In this document: one piece after another, positions 48,900-54,728 of the stretch
How positions within the stretch are numbered: the first letter of the stretch is position 1
Layout of the letters: every line of letters begins with the position of its first letter
NCBI RefSeq assembly: GCF_004307425.1
Contig: NZ_SEWZ01000003.1
Coordinates: 124,001 to 188,000, forward strand
DNA length: 64,000 bases
Direction: 5' to 3'
DNA from: Aquirufa antheringensis
GTDB taxonomy: Bacteria; Bacteroidota; Bacteroidia; Cytophagales; Spirosomataceae
Position numbers and translations under genes: made by a program
The notes under the pieces: generated by a model
What the model was told of the DNA's origin: nothing
What the model saw: the letters and a program-made list of their open reading frames with translations, nothing else
Database searches by the model: none

Positions 48900-49015
48900 T
48901 TGATAGGTTGGCTACGTCTTTGTAAGTCCAAATGAAAGTAAAAATAATGGGAAAGCGATAGCTTTAGTCGAAACGCGTAGTGAATAATTTTAACAAATAA
49001 ATCTATCTTGAGGTT

Positions 49016-51001
49016 ATGTTTTGGATGAATGTAAGATTAAGATTTCTTTTTTTAGGGTGTTTGCTTTTCGTATTGACCATCTATGTGGTTGATGCTCAAG
49101 TGGTCTCGCGTCAGAAGCAAGGTCAAATGAGAGAATTAAATGCGTTAGCAAACAGTCAAACAAGGGAAGCTTCTTTAAGAATGTTAGCCATTTGGGATAG
49201 TTTAAATACGAATCATCACAATCTGATTTATCATTTAGTTCCTATTTCTTTTTGGGAAAAATCACTTGAAAAAAAAATCCGGCTATCTATCCAAGACAAA
49301 GAAGAGGAGATTCGTTTGAAAGCAGCCTATGCCTTAGCCCATGTGTATTACGTGCAATTGAAAATCAAGGAGACCGCTCCCCTGATTGACTTTTTATATT
49401 CCCACAAGAAGCAATTGACCCGAAAACAATATGGTTCTGTCTTAATAAAAAAAGAGGAGATACATCGGTTTTATAAAGATATTGCCAAAGCGGTAAAGGT
49501 TCGCAATGAGCGCGTAGAGAATGGATTCATCAAAACGTATTGGGAGTTGTATTTTGCTGCCGGCTTGTATAATGAAGCGATTCAGGATTTTAAATCATTT
49601 GAAAAGCTTCCCGAGCGGCCCTTTCGGAATCGAATGATGTATTTCGTTCATTTAGGGGATATGTACTTTGAGTCTAAACAATTAGATAGTGCCTTTCACT
49701 ACTACCGTATTGGGTTGAAAGAGGTTGATATTTATTTGGATAAAATGAAGCGGAAGGAAATAATCGAGGAGGGGAATTTTCCTTATTGGCGTGGTTGGTT
49801 CACCGGATTAATGGCTAATTGCCTAGTGGAAAAAGAGCAGTATGCGCGAGCGAGGCCGATGTTAGACTATTATTTGAAGATGAGCCCAGCGGATCAACGC
49901 ATTAATAGCCTGATCCCTTTAAGTATTTGCTATTTTCATCTAGGGGAAATTGAGAAGGGGAAAGTGTATTTAGACAGTGCACAAGTGCTTTTGCAGCCTA
50001 CTATGTACGGTCCGAATGAATTTAAATTTCTAAAAGCGAAGTCAGACTATTTTAAGGCCAAAAATGAAATGGATTCTGCCTATTTGTTTTTGGAAGCCTA
50101 CAATAAGAAAAAGGGATTATATGAAGCAGGACTTTTGAAAAATCAATCGCTGTTACTACTGGGAAGAATGGAAATTGATAAAAGGCGGACGGAACTAAAG
50201 TTAACCCAAAAGGACCTGATCAAAACGAAGGAAGATTCGAGTCTTCAGAAAAAGCAATTATTTCTATCTCTGGTAGGCTTGGTTTTATTAGCCATTTCTA
50301 CGGCGCTTATCTTAATCAATTACCGTCAAAAGAGTAGAAGTAAAAATATCATTGAGAAAAAAAATATAGAACTAGCTGCCTTTGCTGAGATTAATTTGCG
50401 TAAAAGTCAGCACAATGAGCAATTAGTGAAGGAATTGCATCACAGGGTAAAGAATAACCTACAAAATATCTACAGCTTGCTGAATATCCAGAAGCGAAGA
50501 ATTGTAGATGAGGAAACGAAAAATTTTGTCACCTCGATTCAAAACAGAATAAATTCCATGGCAGTTGTTCATGAAAGTTTATATTCTGATGATACCCGCG
50601 ATTCGGTTAATTTTGAACACTATGTGAAAAATTTAGTCGACCATATTAAACTTACTTACGAAAAAGAAGATCAACGGATCTCACTTTCCTATAGCATAGA
50701 TTCGGTTCAATTGTCGCTCGAAAAAATCATTTTACTTGGGTTGATTATTAACGAATCGGTTTCAAATGCCTATAAATATTTGACTAGTGAACAGGGGAAT
50801 CAATTGTTTATTTCCTTGGAAGTGGCAGCAGATACGTGCACCTTAACTATACGGGATGATGGGCCTGGTTTTGACCCTAAAGCGGTCAATCGAACGAGTT
50901 TAGGATTAAAACTTGTCCAAATGATGGTTGTGCAATTAGAGGCATCCTATTCCATGTCTTCAGAAAAAGGAGTAGAACATCGTATTCAATTTAAAGCGTA
51001 G
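49016..51001 (+). CDS. Sensor histidine kinase, HisKA_2 type with TPR-like sensor region
   Basis: 661 residues. A signal or anchor segment (about 10-28) is followed by a periplasmic helical TPR-like region (about 35-395), one membrane helix (LFLSLVGLVLLAISTALILI, about 418-438), a coiled linker, and the kinase. The HisKA_2 H-box is LVKELHHRVKNNLQNIYSLL with the His pair at 475-476. The HATPase domain shows LGLIINESVSNAYKYL (N box), RDDGPGFDP (G1) and TSLGLKLVQMMV (G2). The cognate regulator gene starts 4 bp after the stop. The input signal is not evident; TPR sensor kinases of this layout are common in Bacteroidota. Confidence 0.9.
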   Translation: MFWMNVRLRFLFLGCLLFVLTIYVVDAQVVSRQKQGQMRELNALANSQTREASLRMLAIWDSLNTNHHNLIYHLVPISFWEKSLEKKIRLSIQDKEEEIRLKAAYALAHVYYVQLKIKETAPLIDFLYSHKKQLTRKQYGSVLIKKEEIHRFYKDIAKAVKVRNERVENGFIKTYWELYFAAGLYNEAIQDFKSFEKLPERPFRNRMMYFVHLGDMYFESKQLDSAFHYYRIGLKEVDIYLDKMKRKEIIEEGNFPYWRGWFTGLMANCLVEKEQYARARPMLDYYLKMSPADQRINSLIPLSICYFHLGEIEKGKVYLDSAQVLLQPTMYGPNEFKFLKAKSDYFKAKNEMDSAYLFLEAYNKKKGLYEAGLLKNQSLLLLGRMEIDKRRTELKLTQKDLIKTKEDSSLQKKQLFLSLVGLVLLAISTALILINYRQKSRSKNIIEKKNIELAAFAEINLRKSQHNEQLVKELHHRVKNNLQNIYSLLNIQKRRIVDEETKNFVTSIQNRINSMAVVHESLYSDDTRDSVNFEHYVKNLVDHIKLTYEKEDQRISLSYSIDSVQLSLEKIILLGLIINESVSNAYKYLTSEQGNQLFISLEVAADTCTLTIRDDGPGFDPKAVNRTSLGLKLVQMMVVQLEASYSMSSEKGVEHRIQFKA

Positions 51002-51005
51002 CAGG

Positions 51006-51593
51006 ATGGCAGAAAAGAGAATTTTAATTTTAGAAGACGAAATGTTACAGGCGCTCGATTTAAGTGAACTGTTGCAAAGTGAAGGCTATGTAACTGAAGT
51101 TGCCGATAGTTTTGAAATTGGCATTAAAGCCGTAAAGGAGTTTAAGCCGCAATTAATCATTTGTGATATTAATTTGAAAGCCTCACATACGGGGATTGAT
51201 TTTGCCAAAGAAGTCAATGCGTTTTACCCTTTGGCAGAAATTATTTTCATCACGGCCATTACGAAACAATCCATTATGGAGGAAGCGCAAGAAACGGAAC
51301 CCTTAAACTACATTGTGAAGCCCTGGAAGGAAGAACAAATAAAGGTCACTGTTCACTTAGCATTTCAATACATTGAGAGTAAAAATAACGATGTAAAGGA
51401 GCTGTTGACTATGTCAGAGTACAAAATTTTAAAACTCGTAGCTAAACAATACTCCAGCAAAGAGATTGCGAACCTGTTATTTGTCTCCGAGAAAACGGTG
51501 AAGAATCACCGCCATAATATTATCCAAAAATTGAATTTGACTAATGAGCCCAATAGTTTGTTGAAGTGGGCGATTCATCAGTCGGAGATTTAG
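51006..51593 (+). CDS. Response regulator, REC plus LuxR-type helix-turn-helix
   Basis: 195 residues. The REC domain (about 4-122) has the acidic pair in ILILEDEM, the phospho-acceptor Asp54 in IICDINLK, Thr in FITAITKQ and Lys in NYIVKPW. The C-terminal HTH (about 135-190) is of LuxR/FixJ type: LTMSEYKILKLVAKQYSSKEIANLLFVSEKTVKNHRHNI. The gene lies 4 bp after the kinase gene, so both are co-expressed. Targets are unknown. The tRNA-Arg fragment that marks the left end of the putative island begins 24 bp after the stop. Confidence 0.92.
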   Translation: MAEKRILILEDEMLQALDLSELLQSEGYVTEVADSFEIGIKAVKEFKPQLIICDINLKASHTGIDFAKEVNAFYPLAEIIFITAITKQSIMEEAQETEPLNYIVKPWKEEQIKVTVHLAFQYIESKNNDVKELLTMSEYKILKLVAKQYSSKEIANLLFVSEKTVKNHRHNIIQKLNLTNEPNSLLKWAIHQSEI

Positions 51594-51617
51594 ATGTAGG
51601 GCTAGTTCTATTTTGTG

Positions 51618-51680
51618 GCCTCGGAAGGAATCGAGTCGTACGCGACCCCGGCCTCATCTTAGGTACCGGAAAACTACATT
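51618..51680 (-). repeat. 3' fragment of tRNA-Arg, left attachment-like site
   Basis: The fragment covers the tRNA from the anticodon stem to the discriminator. It differs from the intact gene in one base before the common ctacatt and in the T-arm, where 4 bases (acct) are replaced by 19 (starting gtcgtacgcgac). It lacks the 5' half and cannot be a functional tRNA. Confidence 0.75.
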
Positions 51681-51728
51681 ATTAGAAAACATGTGTTTAT
51701 TTGATTTAATGACCATATTCAGGTCTTT

Positions 51729-51783
51729 TTGTGTAGCAAAATGGTTGTTTTTGGGTGGTTTGCTACACAAATGCTGCACAAAT
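51729..51783. repeat. Left cluster of TTGCTACACAA repeats
   Basis: ttgtgtagcaa (51729-51739, inverted copy), ttgctacacaa (51760-51770) and a one-mismatch copy tgctgcacaa (51772-51781). They could be arm-type sites for a tyrosine recombinase. Confidence 0.6.
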
Positions 51784-51981
51784 ATTAACGTTGAAACTTC
51801 GTTTAATTTTAAACAAAGCTAACCAAAATGTTAATCCAATCGAATTTTAAGAAAAGTGTTTAAAACTCTATGTGTGCTGTTTTCCTTTTCTGAAAAAGGG
51901 GGTACTTACGGATGCTTCTTATTTAATAATCCTCTAACTTTAAACTTAGATGGACTAATTTTCAAATAACACTTCTAAATA

Positions 51982-53754
51982 ATGTTTAAAAACATCTTAC
52001 TCTTATTTTTCTCATTCCTATTTTTTGCATGTACAAAGGATATAATTCAACAGAAATTAACAGTTGATGTTACTCCAATTAGAGGAGGTGCTGTATCACC
52101 ACTAACTAACGCTTTCGAAAAAGGTACGGTAGTCACATTGGTTGCAACTCCGGCATCTGAATACATTTTCAAACAATGGCAAGGTAGTTTCACAGGTACA
52201 GTTAACCCAACTACCATAACCATGGATACCGATAAAGAGGTTACAGGTGTATTTGAAAAAAGGCAATATCCATTAACTTTGACTATAGAAGGTAATGGAA
52301 CAGTTAAAGAAGAGATTTCAGCGGTCGCACCTCAATCTCTATATCCACATAATACTTATGTAAGAATAACTGCTCAGCCGGACCTTAACAATGTATTTGT
52401 AGGATGGTCTGGTGATTTAATAAGTGGTTCAAACCCATTTGCAGTAGTTGTTGATAAACCTGTCAACCTTAAAGCTACTTTTAAACCATTAGTTTTTCCA
52501 GGTTATAAAGTTCAGCCGTTTACAAAATCTGATGAACCTAATTATTGGAGAGATTGTGGTGTCATGTGGGATGTAATTGGTGACAAATTCTTTAAAAAAC
52601 CAAACGGTACATCAGGGTCTTGCTTCTTTCCTCAGGTCATTGCTGGAGATTTTAATAAAGATGGATGGATAGACATATATAACCCAGGCACAGGCTCCTA
52701 TAATGGTAAAGTTGTTGATAATAACCAATGGTTAATTTGGAATCCTTCTCTTAAAACCTATGAAAATAAGAACTTGCTTAATAACAATTTAACATCTTTT
52801 GGAGGTAATCCAAGAAGAACAATATCTGTAGACCTTAACAAAGACGGATACACTGATGCCATAATTCTTGACCATGGTGATGATGTACTTCCAAATGCAC
52901 CACTTCAGCCAATTCGAATAGTTCTATCTGATGGAAATGGAGGTTATGACTTAAAGGATATAAGTGTGACACCAAATCTTATGTATAACCACGGAGGAGA
53001 TATTGGTGACCTTAATAATGATGGAAACTTTGATTTGGTCGTAGCAACGGGTAGTATTGTTTATATCACTTGGGGCATACCTAACTATCCTTATTTTGGA
53101 ACTAATACTACAATGTTCAATATTTGGGATAATAACAACTCGTTTCCTGAAGCTGCCGGTGGAGTAAATAATATTACAATTGCCGATGTTAATAATGATG
53201 GATGGAACGACATATTAGAGGGGAGTAATGAAAACTCCAAAACGATTGAGAAAACGTTACCATTTGACCTTCAGAACCGAGTACTCATAAATCAAGGGAA
53301 CGGAATTTTCAATAAAAATGGACTTAAGTTATTACAACCATATTTTAGCACGCCTGTAGCAAATAACACCGCGGCCACAAATCATGACATGCGAGCCTTT
53401 GATTTTAATGGAGATGGATTGAAAGACATTTTAGTGGCCGGTTCAGTTGCATATGATGATTATTACTTCGTCCTACATATCCAACAAAAAGATGGGTCAT
53501 TCATTATAGGAAAGGATAAAATTTTTTATTCTAACAACGTAATTCGTAAAGTAGGTAAGTCACCTGGATTTTGGAAACCTTGGTTAGTATTTTATGACTT
53601 CAATGGTGATGGGAGAAAAGATTTTTCATACATTGATAGTGAGAATTTTAGTAAAACTCTGACAACGAAATCAGTATTTATTCGGATTGCTGATATATTT
53701 TTTGAACAAGACCTATATCAATATGATGAGTATGCAAAAAGTATAAAACCATAA
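51982..53754 (+). CDS. Surface lipoprotein with InlB-B-type and FG-GAP/VCBS-like repeats
   Basis: 590 residues. A lipoprotein signal ends LFFFSFLFFAC (Cys17 or so). Residues 25-170 hold two copies of the bacterial-repeat / InlB-B-like domain (VTPIRGGAVSP...FKQWQGSFTGT...VTGVFEKR and LTIEGNGTVKEE...FVGWSGDLISG...LKATFKP). The C-terminal 400 residues form a beta-propeller with Ca-binding D-x-N-x-D-G-x-x-D loops: DFNKDGWID, DLNKDGYTD, DLNNDGNFD, DVNNDGWND, DFNGDGLKD and DFNGDGRKD. It is probably a surface adhesin or glycan-binding protein; no catalytic motif seen. Base use is AT-richer than its neighbours, with AGA and AAT codons common, which fits transfer. It is the only gene of the putative island. 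Confidence 0.85.
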   Translation: MFKNILLLFFSFLFFACTKDIIQQKLTVDVTPIRGGAVSPLTNAFEKGTVVTLVATPASEYIFKQWQGSFTGTVNPTTITMDTDKEVTGVFEKRQYPLTLTIEGNGTVKEEISAVAPQSLYPHNTYVRITAQPDLNNVFVGWSGDLISGSNPFAVVVDKPVNLKATFKPLVFPGYKVQPFTKSDEPNYWRDCGVMWDVIGDKFFKKPNGTSGSCFFPQVIAGDFNKDGWIDIYNPGTGSYNGKVVDNNQWLIWNPSLKTYENKNLLNNNLTSFGGNPRRTISVDLNKDGYTDAIILDHGDDVLPNAPLQPIRIVLSDGNGGYDLKDISVTPNLMYNHGGDIGDLNNDGNFDLVVATGSIVYITWGIPNYPYFGTNTTMFNIWDNNNSFPEAAGGVNNITIADVNNDGWNDILEGSNENSKTIEKTLPFDLQNRVLINQGNGIFNKNGLKLLQPYFSTPVANNTAATNHDMRAFDFNGDGLKDILVAGSVAYDDYYFVLHIQQKDGSFIIGKDKIFYSNNVIRKVGKSPGFWKPWLVFYDFNGDGRKDFSYIDSENFSKTLTTKSVFIRIADIFFEQDLYQYDEYAKSIKP

Positions 53755-53828
53755 TCGATAGTCCTCTAAATCGAGTTCTACCTGTAAGTGTCCCAAAATC
53801 ATAGACAGTTTAGAGTTATAATTTTCAC

Positions 53829-53852
53829 TTGCTACACAAATCTGCTACACAA
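53829..53852 (+). repeat. Right cluster of TTGCTACACAA repeats
   Basis: ttgctacacaa (53829-53839) and ctgctacacaa (53842-53852), 13 bp apart, direct. They match the left cluster 2 kb away and lie about 75 bp from the tRNA 3' end. Confidence 0.6.
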
Positions 53853-53875
53853 GTTCAGTTTTTCCCTAAAATACA

Positions 53876-53908
53876 AAAGGACATCTCATTGCGAAATGTC
53901 CTTTTTTG
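53876..53908. terminator. Terminator between the island gene and tRNA-Arg
   Basis: aaaggacat / atgtccttt stem with a loop of about 12 nt, then six to seven T on the plus strand and a shorter T run on the minus strand. It can end transcription from both sides. Confidence 0.8.
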
Positions 53909-53927
53909 TTGACCAGAGGTCAGTTTG

Positions 53928-53999
53928 TAGCCTCGGAAGGAATCGAACCTTCATCTTAGGTACCGGAAACCTACATTCTATCCATTGAACTACGAAGCC
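53928..53999 (-). tRNA. tRNA-Arg (anticodon CCG)
   Basis: A 72-nt cloverleaf: acceptor ggcttcg/cgaggct (G1-U72 and one internal G-U), D-arm with gttc...gaat, anticodon stem taggt/accta with loop ttCCGgt, T-arm gaagg-ttcgatt-ccttc, discriminator A. CCA is not encoded. It reads codon CGG. Its 3' part is repeated at 51618-51680. Confidence 0.93.
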
Positions 54000-54006
54000 A
54001 GGGCTG

Positions 54007-54014
54007 CAAAATTA
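54007..54014 (-). promoter_or_regulatory. Candidate -7 element of tRNA-Arg
   Basis: Reads TAATTTTG on the minus strand, an exact TAnnTTTG, 7 bp before the tRNA 5' end. It overlaps the stop codon of the pseudouridine synthase gene. Confidence 0.45.
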
Positions 54015-54728
54015 CGAATACTTCTCCAAAGTCTTTACCAGCACATTGAAATCTTTTGGATAGGGTGCCTCGACTGTGATTGGGTCTCCGTTCATCAAGT
54101 TGAAAGACAAACTGTGTGCATGAAGAGCTACGCGGCGCATAACGGGTAATTCTTCTGTATCTTTTTTCAAATGGAAATTGCGTTTTAAATCGGAGAGGTA
54201 AATTTCAGGGCCGCCGTACATCGCGTCGGAAACGATAGGCGCTTTGAGGCAGGTGAGGTGAATACGGATTTGGTGCATGCGTCCTGTGATGGGCATACAT
54301 TCGACTAAGGTATAGCCACGGTATACTTTCAGCGTTCTAAACCAGGTTTCGGCGTGCTTTCCTTTGGCACGATCAATCACCACTTTTCCATCTTTCAAAG
54401 GCAAAATGGGCAAGTTGACTAAAAATCCATCCCAGTCATGCATTCCCTCCACGACCGCGTGGTAGCGTTTCGCCGTTTCGCGGTGCTCGAATTGCATGGA
54501 GATGTGGCGGTAGGCCTCTGGATTTTTGGCGATCACTAAAGCCCCAGATGTTTCTTTGTCCAAACGGTGTCCCACCTGCGCATCAGACGAATATTCCTTC
54601 GCTAAACGCAAGATGGCCGGCGCTAAATCATCCTTCCGCTCATCCAGCGTCGAAATGCCCGAGGGCTTGTTAATCACAATAAAATCAGCATCCTCGAAAA
54701 GGATGGAATCGGTAAATTTGTATTTCAT
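54012..54728 (-). CDS. RluA-family pseudouridine synthase
   Basis: 238 residues, without an N-terminal S4 domain. It isomerises uridine in rRNA or tRNA. The catalytic Asp57 is in GHRLDKETSGALVIAK, preceded by the KPSGISTLDER strand and followed by KRYHAVVEGMH and the ITGRMHQIRIHLTCL motif with Arg contacts. The exact target (RluC/RluD- or TruC-like) cannot be told from the sequence; length and the lack of S4 favour an RluA/TruC-like enzyme. Its stop lies over the tRNA-Arg promoter element; upstream is the repeat-rich gap 54735-54983. Confidence 0.9.
   Translation of the reverse strand: MKYKFTDSILFEDADFIVINKPSGISTLDERKDDLAPAILRLAKEYSSDAQVGHRLDKETSGALVIAKNPEAYRHISMQFEHRETAKRYHAVVEGMHDWDGFLVNLPILPLKDGKVVIDRAKGKHAETWFRTLKVYRGYTLVECMPITGRMHQIRIHLTCLKAPIVSDAMYGGPEIYLSDLKRNFHLKKDTEELPVMRRVALHAHSLSFNLMNGDPITVEAPYPKDFNVLVKTLEKYS

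Follow-up and report, generated by a model that had tools for sequence, protein, structure and literature searches.

As described in the parts of the literature consulted here, a cis-mobilizable element (CIME) is a decayed ICE or IME that has lost the integration gene while keeping attL and attR (PMC5704250); the Dehalococcoides ssrA islands stand in tandem and are bounded by copies of the 3' end of an RNA gene, sixteen identified islands having an integration module (PMC3146451); MITEs and CALIN arrays are "hitchers," that is, non-autonomous units that keep their sites, borrow the enzyme, and are thought to be born by gene loss (PMC11389934); and a tycheposon is a cargo element of 4–200 kb that bears a tyrosine recombinase and is located at a tRNA (PMC10872708). 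Among the 10 papers listed of 10,392 for Aquirufa and genomic islands, no title or abstract opening reported the family to which the present locus belongs.

The locus lies in a window of 64,000 nucleotides—the whole stretch of DNA that was analysed, whose positions are used throughout—and comprises the features listed in Table 1. A first-pass annotation, made from the letters alone, had proposed an island without a recombinase, bounded by tRNA-Arg(CCG) and by a partial copy of that gene in the orientation that integration would leave. The partial copy was recovered by repeat search as two blocks in register with the intact gene, 51612–51634 versus 53924–53946 (96% of 23 nt) and 51654–51680 versus 53951–53977 (96% of 27 nt), and ARAGORN called one tRNA; between those blocks, as read from the sequence, 51635–51653 (GTCGTACGCGACCCCGG plus CC) replaces ACCT at 53947–53950. 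Of the two boundaries proposed, the one at the tRNA (53977) stood, and the left edge is better set at 51612 than at 51618. The single gene announced between the copies was found as one ORF of 590 aa, and the clustered short repeats correspond to TTTGTGTAGCAAA/TTTGCTACACAAA with TGCTGCACAAAT at the left end and to two direct TGCTACACAA sites at the right end. The AT-richness attributed to the island holds with respect to the right flank, the GC content being 33–37% in the island and 44–51% beyond 54000, but not with respect to the left flank (34–41% at 49000–51499). Finally, the absence of a recombinase was confirmed: the own genome contains two PF00589 matches, of 310 and 292 aa and from size groups shared by the majority of the 31 genomes examined, neither of which falls within the window span.

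Table 1. Features of the island and its immediate surroundings, in window positions.
Feature	Position	Strand	Basis or remark
Histidine kinase and LuxR-type response regulator (outside the island, left)	49016..51593	+	
Displaced tRNA-Arg tail (left attachment copy), broken at T-loop position	51612..51680	-	repeat comparison
17-nt repeat GTCGTACGCGACCCCGG, in place of one nt of the displaced tail	51635..51651	+	
Left arm	51681..51800	+	spacing equal to integrase-bearing elements
Left-arm inverted pair TTTGTGTAGCAAA / TTTGCTACACAAA	51728-51740 / 51759-51771		
Left-arm additional site TGCTGCACAAAT	51772-51783		
Cargo ORF, 590 aa	51982..53754	+	ORF list and Pfam
Integrase scar: the six final codons of the family integrase with the stop, ATA GAC AGT TTA GAG TTA TAA	53801..53821	+	alignment
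Right arm: two directly repeated TGCTACACAA sites at a distance of 13 bp	53829..53854	+	
Hairpin AAAAGGACATCTC...GAAATGTCCTTTTTT, probable element-supplied terminator of the tRNA transcript	53870..53910	.	
Attachment identity block, island right end	53927-53977 (51 nt)		within intact tRNA-Arg(CCG)
Intact tRNA-Arg(CCG)	53927..53999	-	only tRNA called by ARAGORN in the window
Pseudouridine synthase (outside the island, right)	54012..54728	-	12 bp from the tRNA; core-like dS

The own genome (2.5 Mb) contains five matches to TTTGCTACACAAAT with at most one mismatch, three of those five being in the island, and none to the reversed control. The cargo ORF matches the Pfam domains Flg_new_2 and FG-GAP_3 (InlB-type B repeats and FG-GAP repeats), and its N-terminus reads as lipoprotein-like; to judge from those domains, the product is probably a surface or secreted lipoprotein. 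Part of the hairpin folds with z = -3.2, and, as the element supplies both the tRNA tail and a hairpin that would end the transcript, the host would keep a working tRNA. A left-arm block of about 85 bp (51826–51909; query 142–225) is also present on other contigs in three of the genomes compared (G001, G029, and G040).

The relatives examined belong to Aquirufa, freshwater Spirosomaceae, and are designated by G-numbers, G000 being the window's own genome, G018 A. aurantiipilula 15D-MOB, and G041 A. ecclesiirivi 50A-KIRBA. The tRNA-Arg(CCG) site was read in 31 of the 38 Aquirufa genomes searched—some of those sites being at contig ends, as in G012, with 30 bp of sequence to the left of the tRNA, and G031, whose contig begins at the tRNA—and the tally gave 12 clear cases, 3 partial ones (G030, G034, and G031, with partial ends only), and 16 sites without arms. 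In G007 and G018 the site is occupied by islands of 24–27 kb with a tyrosine recombinase of about 510 aa that ends at the right arm; the ends of those islands are 87% (left) and 90–93% (right) identical to the window arms, and both TGCTACACAA-type clusters are present. A third intact recombinase, 78% identical, accompanies a right arm in G029, the matching left arm being on a different contig. Among ten proteins of the G007 element, Pfam identified a multicopper oxidase, a P-type ATPase, part of an AcrB-type efflux protein, a DNA methylase, and the integrase, but no match to a relaxase or mating-pair family; the full elements also carry a weakly primase-like protein and cargo of the copper-efflux type, as indicated by Pfam for G007 only and by shared ORF families for G018. 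The family integrase matches integrase families of PHROGs; a phage origin is not supported, the patterns used having found no match among viral contigs.

The expectation that the same ends would be met with other cargo was borne out in G042, G043, G032, and G016, where related arms flank different genes and no intact integrase is present: the cargo consists of a sulfatase and a formylglycine-enzyme/GldK-like protein in G042, and, by reading, of aldo/keto reductase-like and hydrolase-like proteins in G043. Units without cargo, made up of tail and arm, lie beside the tRNA in G041 and G005. With these integrase-bearing relatives and other-cargo islands, we judge the earlier proposal of a cargo unit that was moved in trans or was left over from a larger element to be supported. 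Some additional arrangements were observed: in G015, which has no arms, a second tail around a segment of 0.7 kb; in G046, without arms at the site, a tail fragment and a left arm some 25 kb off in the opposite orientation; and, in the G018 element, a second left arm located internally. Moreover, G016 (locus L112, G016:C16:100000-116000, a stretch that contains no intact tRNA) encodes a protein related to the family integrase at 45% identity; some 4 kb away lies a tail of tRNA-Arg(CCT) accompanied by TGCTACACA-type sites, which arrangement suggests that the integrase family may use tRNA-Arg(CCT) as well.

When the right ends were aligned, the 3' end of the integrase was found to be full in G007, G018, and G029 and to be represented by 52 aa in G043, by a remnant that we estimated by eye at about 20 codons in G032, and by no more than the last six codons with the stop in G000, G008, and G042, a decayed version of this scar being present in G013. 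Just 5' of the scar, G000, G008, G013, and G042 have some sequence in common. The right-arm 25-mer, for its part, is identical in G000, G008, and G013 and has one mismatch in G007 and one in G018, and the right-arm core has decayed or lost part of its sequence in G042, G043, G032, and G016. From a reading of both ends, the window-type island looks to be the sole integrase-less type here with arm sites that seem usable; the decayed arms of the four other integrase-less islands fit plain decay as well as movement in trans.

The island with its cargo is also present at this site in G008 and G013, with 96 and 94% amino-acid identity in the cargo, respectively, and the next cargo match by E-value is to G010 (61% over residues 168–590). 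The cargo dS was 0.192 for G000–G008, 0.348 for G000–G013, and 0.302 for G008–G013, whereas that of the pseudouridine synthase was, in the same order, 0.755, 0.870, and 0.907; in a comparison that rests on few core genes, and on two only for G008, two further flank genes gave 0.812 and 1.337 for G000–G013, and the gene by tRNA-Arg(CCT) gave 1.54 (G000–G008) and 1.07 (G000–G013). The segment is patchy in its distribution among the relatives, and the divergence of the cargo is unlike that of the core genes measured. Since the value at the pseudouridine synthase is core-like, the low-divergence tract ends at the tRNA, and that gene, a mere 12 bp beyond, was not co-transferred with the island; and, since the left neighbours in G008 differ, the tract is confined between the two att ends. 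The right tail of the island is shortened to 25 nt in G013, so that this copy looks immobile. There, a different integrase of about 400 aa is located at one end of a stretch of about 39 kb between the mini-island and the tRNA (loci L015–L017, G013:C6), and, in view of the cut to 25 nt, the target of that enzyme would seem to be the final 25 nt of tRNA-Arg(CCG).

Between G007 and G018 the dS values were uneven—0.36 for the integrase, 0.34–0.42 for two genes near the integrase, and 0.72 and 1.00 for two others—and both core genes compared were saturated. The left flank of G007 aligns unbroken through the tail into the tRNA in G033 (89.5% over 924 bp) and in G040 (89.8% over 660 bp), which sites represent empty-site alleles of the large G007 element. 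The empty sites anticipated in the first-pass annotation were therefore found for that element, but not for the window's own left flank, as none of the sites read had the regulator running directly into the tRNA; related histidine kinase/regulator pairs (33–49% amino-acid identity) flank the site on the left in G006, G032, G042, and G043.

We consider it probable that 51612–53977 is a non-autonomous, integrase-deleted, CIME-like island that still moved between species, most likely in trans. In this reading, the parent family integrates at the anticodon-loop portion of tRNA-Arg(CCG) by means of the tyrosine recombinase of about 510 aa; a deletion took the whole of the integrase except the last six codons and, as the comparison of the islands shows, spared both attachment tails, both arm clusters, the terminator that stands in for that of the tRNA, and a single gene of lipoprotein-like type. 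The island would then have spread across species as an att-bounded unit, which transfer is supported by the divergence values; the integrase of a full element resident in the same cell would most likely have excised and inserted it in trans. A profile search found no integrase of about 510 aa in the three island hosts G000, G008, and G013 (G008 being fragmented and only 85% complete), and for that reason the movement in trans is a step that we infer.

Three competing explanations were considered. Ordinary homologous recombination of the flanking DNA, instead of an integrase acting in trans, might account for the interspecies spread without any helper, the conserved tRNA and the shared downstream genes presumably providing the homology; we nevertheless hold this course to be unlikely, given the core-like dS of the pseudouridine synthase (0.755–0.907) at 12 bp past the tRNA, together with the different left neighbours in G008 and a low-divergence tract that stops at att on both sides. 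The island might, alternatively, be a dead remnant transmitted vertically, the integrase having been lost in a common ancestor and the island never having moved again and having been lost elsewhere. Both the decay of the arms in the other four integrase-less islands (G042, G043, G032, and G016) and the failure to see a cognate integrase in the three hosts would agree with such a history, but the cargo dS is 2.3–8 times lower than that of the measured core genes in the same pairs, the left neighbours are not the same, and G007 and G002 are without the island though being closer to G000, by the neighbouring gene, than are G008 and G013; we thus regard the dead remnant as quite unlikely. In a third scenario, every host would have acquired a full element, integrase included, and would have lost the integrase independently. 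This is, in our opinion, very improbable indeed: although full elements do occur at the site within the genus, and the several lengths of the remnants indicate that deletion recurs, the junction sequence 5' of the scar is common to G000, G008, and G013, the cargo gene stands alone between the arms in all three, and the alignment suggests that the breakpoints are the same in every copy.

The replaced stretch in the T-arm to which the first-pass annotation drew attention is real, but corresponds to a separate 17-nt repeat, GTCGNNCGCGACCCCGG, that occurs in many unrelated places and does not belong to the integration machinery; the repeat is secondary to the island, an unrelated insertion in the left tail. 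In the own genome, tail copies carry GTCGNNCGCGACCCCGG at window positions 51635–51651 and at G000:C3:402418-402434, which copies cover tRNA-Arg(CCG) and tRNA-Arg(CCT). The motif is present in 23 of the 38 Aquirufa genomes, and in 23 of the 38 again when a longer pattern is used, on account of which recurrence random decay was rejected as the source of the replacement. The Aquirufa occurrences that we read are in tails lying downstream of one or the other tRNA-Arg gene (CCG or CCT), a tandem arrangement with a spacing of 78–150 bp being frequent; the tRNA-Arg(CCT) sites of G041, G043, and G044 are without the motif in the few hundred bases shown, and in G013 the motif is decayed. In the tail adjoining the left arm, the repeat is present in G000, G032, and G042 and absent in G007, G008, G013, G016, G018, and G029. 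With six of the island tails lacking it, and with the motif also lying in 5S, tRNA-His, tRNA-Met-like, and YD-repeat contexts that have no island, a function as att machinery was ruled out.

Relative to uninterrupted copies, the 17 nt usually replace one nucleotide, as judged by eye. Full-length tRNA-Arg copies with the repeat in the T-loop were found in Dyadobacter (G488, G481, and G459, the last assigned to this genus by its kinship label), and other Spirosomaceae contexts comprise a second 5S copy, arrays of tRNA-Met-like tails, CCCCTAAA palindromes, and genes with YD repeats. At one G459 locus (L163, G459:C1:6353500-6356500), five tandem full-length copies of tRNA-Arg(CCT) lie beside an intact gene. 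The T-loops of these copies contain the 17-nt insert (four complete and one shortened), and all five anticodon loops hold the insert in inverse form. In another genome (L210, G486:C2:4324446-4325446), the anticodon loop of a tRNA-His copy is broken by the 17-nt insert, after which dozens of tandem TCTACGCGACCCGG units (14-nt repeats) continue to the end of the stretch. Throughout the family, 67 of 222 genomes match a 19-mer with at most one mismatch, 23 of those 67 being Aquirufa, versus nine genomes for the control; many of the matches outside Aquirufa are single and have one mismatch, and several of those that were read lie in coding sequence. In a sample of the phylum, the 17-mer occurs in 4 of 296 genomes, two of the four belonging to this family. 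Several of the non-Aquirufa matches that were read encode [K/Q/E]SxATP in frame within genes that seem to be single-copy; these may be a coding coincidence and were set aside, and their location in such genes speaks against a restriction to duplicates only. The match in clpB (L173) presumably reflects a real in-frame insertion, if we take the C-terminus of ClpB as the guide.

By a loose test, 58 of 112 distinct contexts have tRNA-tail-like sequence upstream and 54 do not, in a collection that was gathered by motif search, in which one site cut at different locus ends may count twice and whose 54 contexts without a tail include repeat contexts, single coding matches, and matches outside the family. 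No viral contig had the 17-nt motif in a tRNA context. Two other identities were rejected and a third was considered: the displaced tail is not a structured RNA (z = +0.86); the arrays at five loci do not correspond to a known Rfam family, four good matches being the tRNAs themselves and two more falling far below the gathering scores; and neither end of the 17-mer was seen to bear the tag of the GTAG/CGTC-tagged REPs, as those are described in the consulted part of PMC3733652, whose main text, to that extent, does not name Spirosoma or Dyadobacter. A literature search for tRNA-copy arrays or for a palindromic repeat of the Spirosomaceae yielded no lead.

We read the 17-nt repeat as a very small dispersed repeat, apparently akin to the small dispersed repeats of cyanobacteria, inasmuch as it is short, occurs in many places, and lies inside other repeats relative to the uninterrupted copy. 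Those cyanobacterial repeats, on which Elhai and colleagues wrote in 2008, are reportedly very short, dispersed, and located within other repeats; their sequence and phylum are unlike those of the 17-nt repeat. A mention of them stands in the consulted part of PMC3116915. It is possible, though we advance this with considerable doubt, that a hitherto undescribed process in the Spirosomaceae places GTCGNNCGCGACCCCGG into duplicated structured-RNA genes and into other repeats, each time at the cost of a single base and frequently at the loop of a hairpin (T-loop, anticodon loop, or 5S loop); the working copy would be left untouched, so that the duplicates would be tagged or silenced, the tail in the window being one such tagged copy.

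The island belongs to a known kind of element, the 17-nt repeat being the stranger part, which repeat points to a tiny dispersed Bacteroidota repeat that occurs in duplicated copies of RNA genes. The islands compared form a natural series from the full element through partial integrase remnants to the six-codon scar, and this series shows how a tRNA-targeting island can turn into a one-gene passenger that apparently still travels across species. Recombinase-less segments bounded by tRNA sequence are therefore not to be written off as dead, and, with the ends and the helper enzyme both defined, the trans-mobilization of small islands becomes testable.

With respect to the systems described at the outset, the island resembles a CIME, as characterized in the consulted part of PMC5704250, in having attL and attR (both tRNA tails and both arm clusters), with the 3' part of a tRNA, in having lost the integration gene, of which the six-codon scar is all that is left, and in accretion with other elements of the same site. 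CIMEs, however, are mobilized in cis by a neighbour, whereas the transfer pattern of the window island suggests an action in trans: the window contains no recombinase match, and of the three copies of the island only the one in G013 is abutted by a neighbouring element. We accordingly use the term CIME-like instead of CIME, in view also of the ten proteins from the G007 element, among which no relaxase or mating-pair family was matched. The Dehalococcoides ssrA islands have in common with it the bounding copies of the 3' end of an RNA gene and, in the sections consulted, differ by their serine recombinase, the tmRNA gene, and a 20-bp repeat (PMC3146451). The tycheposon, as defined in the part of the source consulted, does not accommodate an island of 2.3 kb without a recombinase, and neither does the phage satellite, for which phage-related genes or packaging signals would be expected, no PHROGs family having been matched by the cargo at E 0.01. 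MITEs and CALIN arrays, as portrayed in the consulted part of PMC11389934, resemble the island as non-autonomous DNA with retained recombination sites, but use a transposase or an integron integrase, whereas the window island combines attachment sites of the tRNA type with a single cargo gene. With the Aquirufa islands that encode the recombinase of about 510 aa (G007, G018, and, in part, G029), the window island shares the tRNA, the 51-bp tail, the terminator hairpin, and the arm clusters with their spacing, these clusters lying at a fixed distance from the tail; it differs from the full islands of 24–27 kb (G007 and G018), which possess the recombinase, in consisting of one gene with none.
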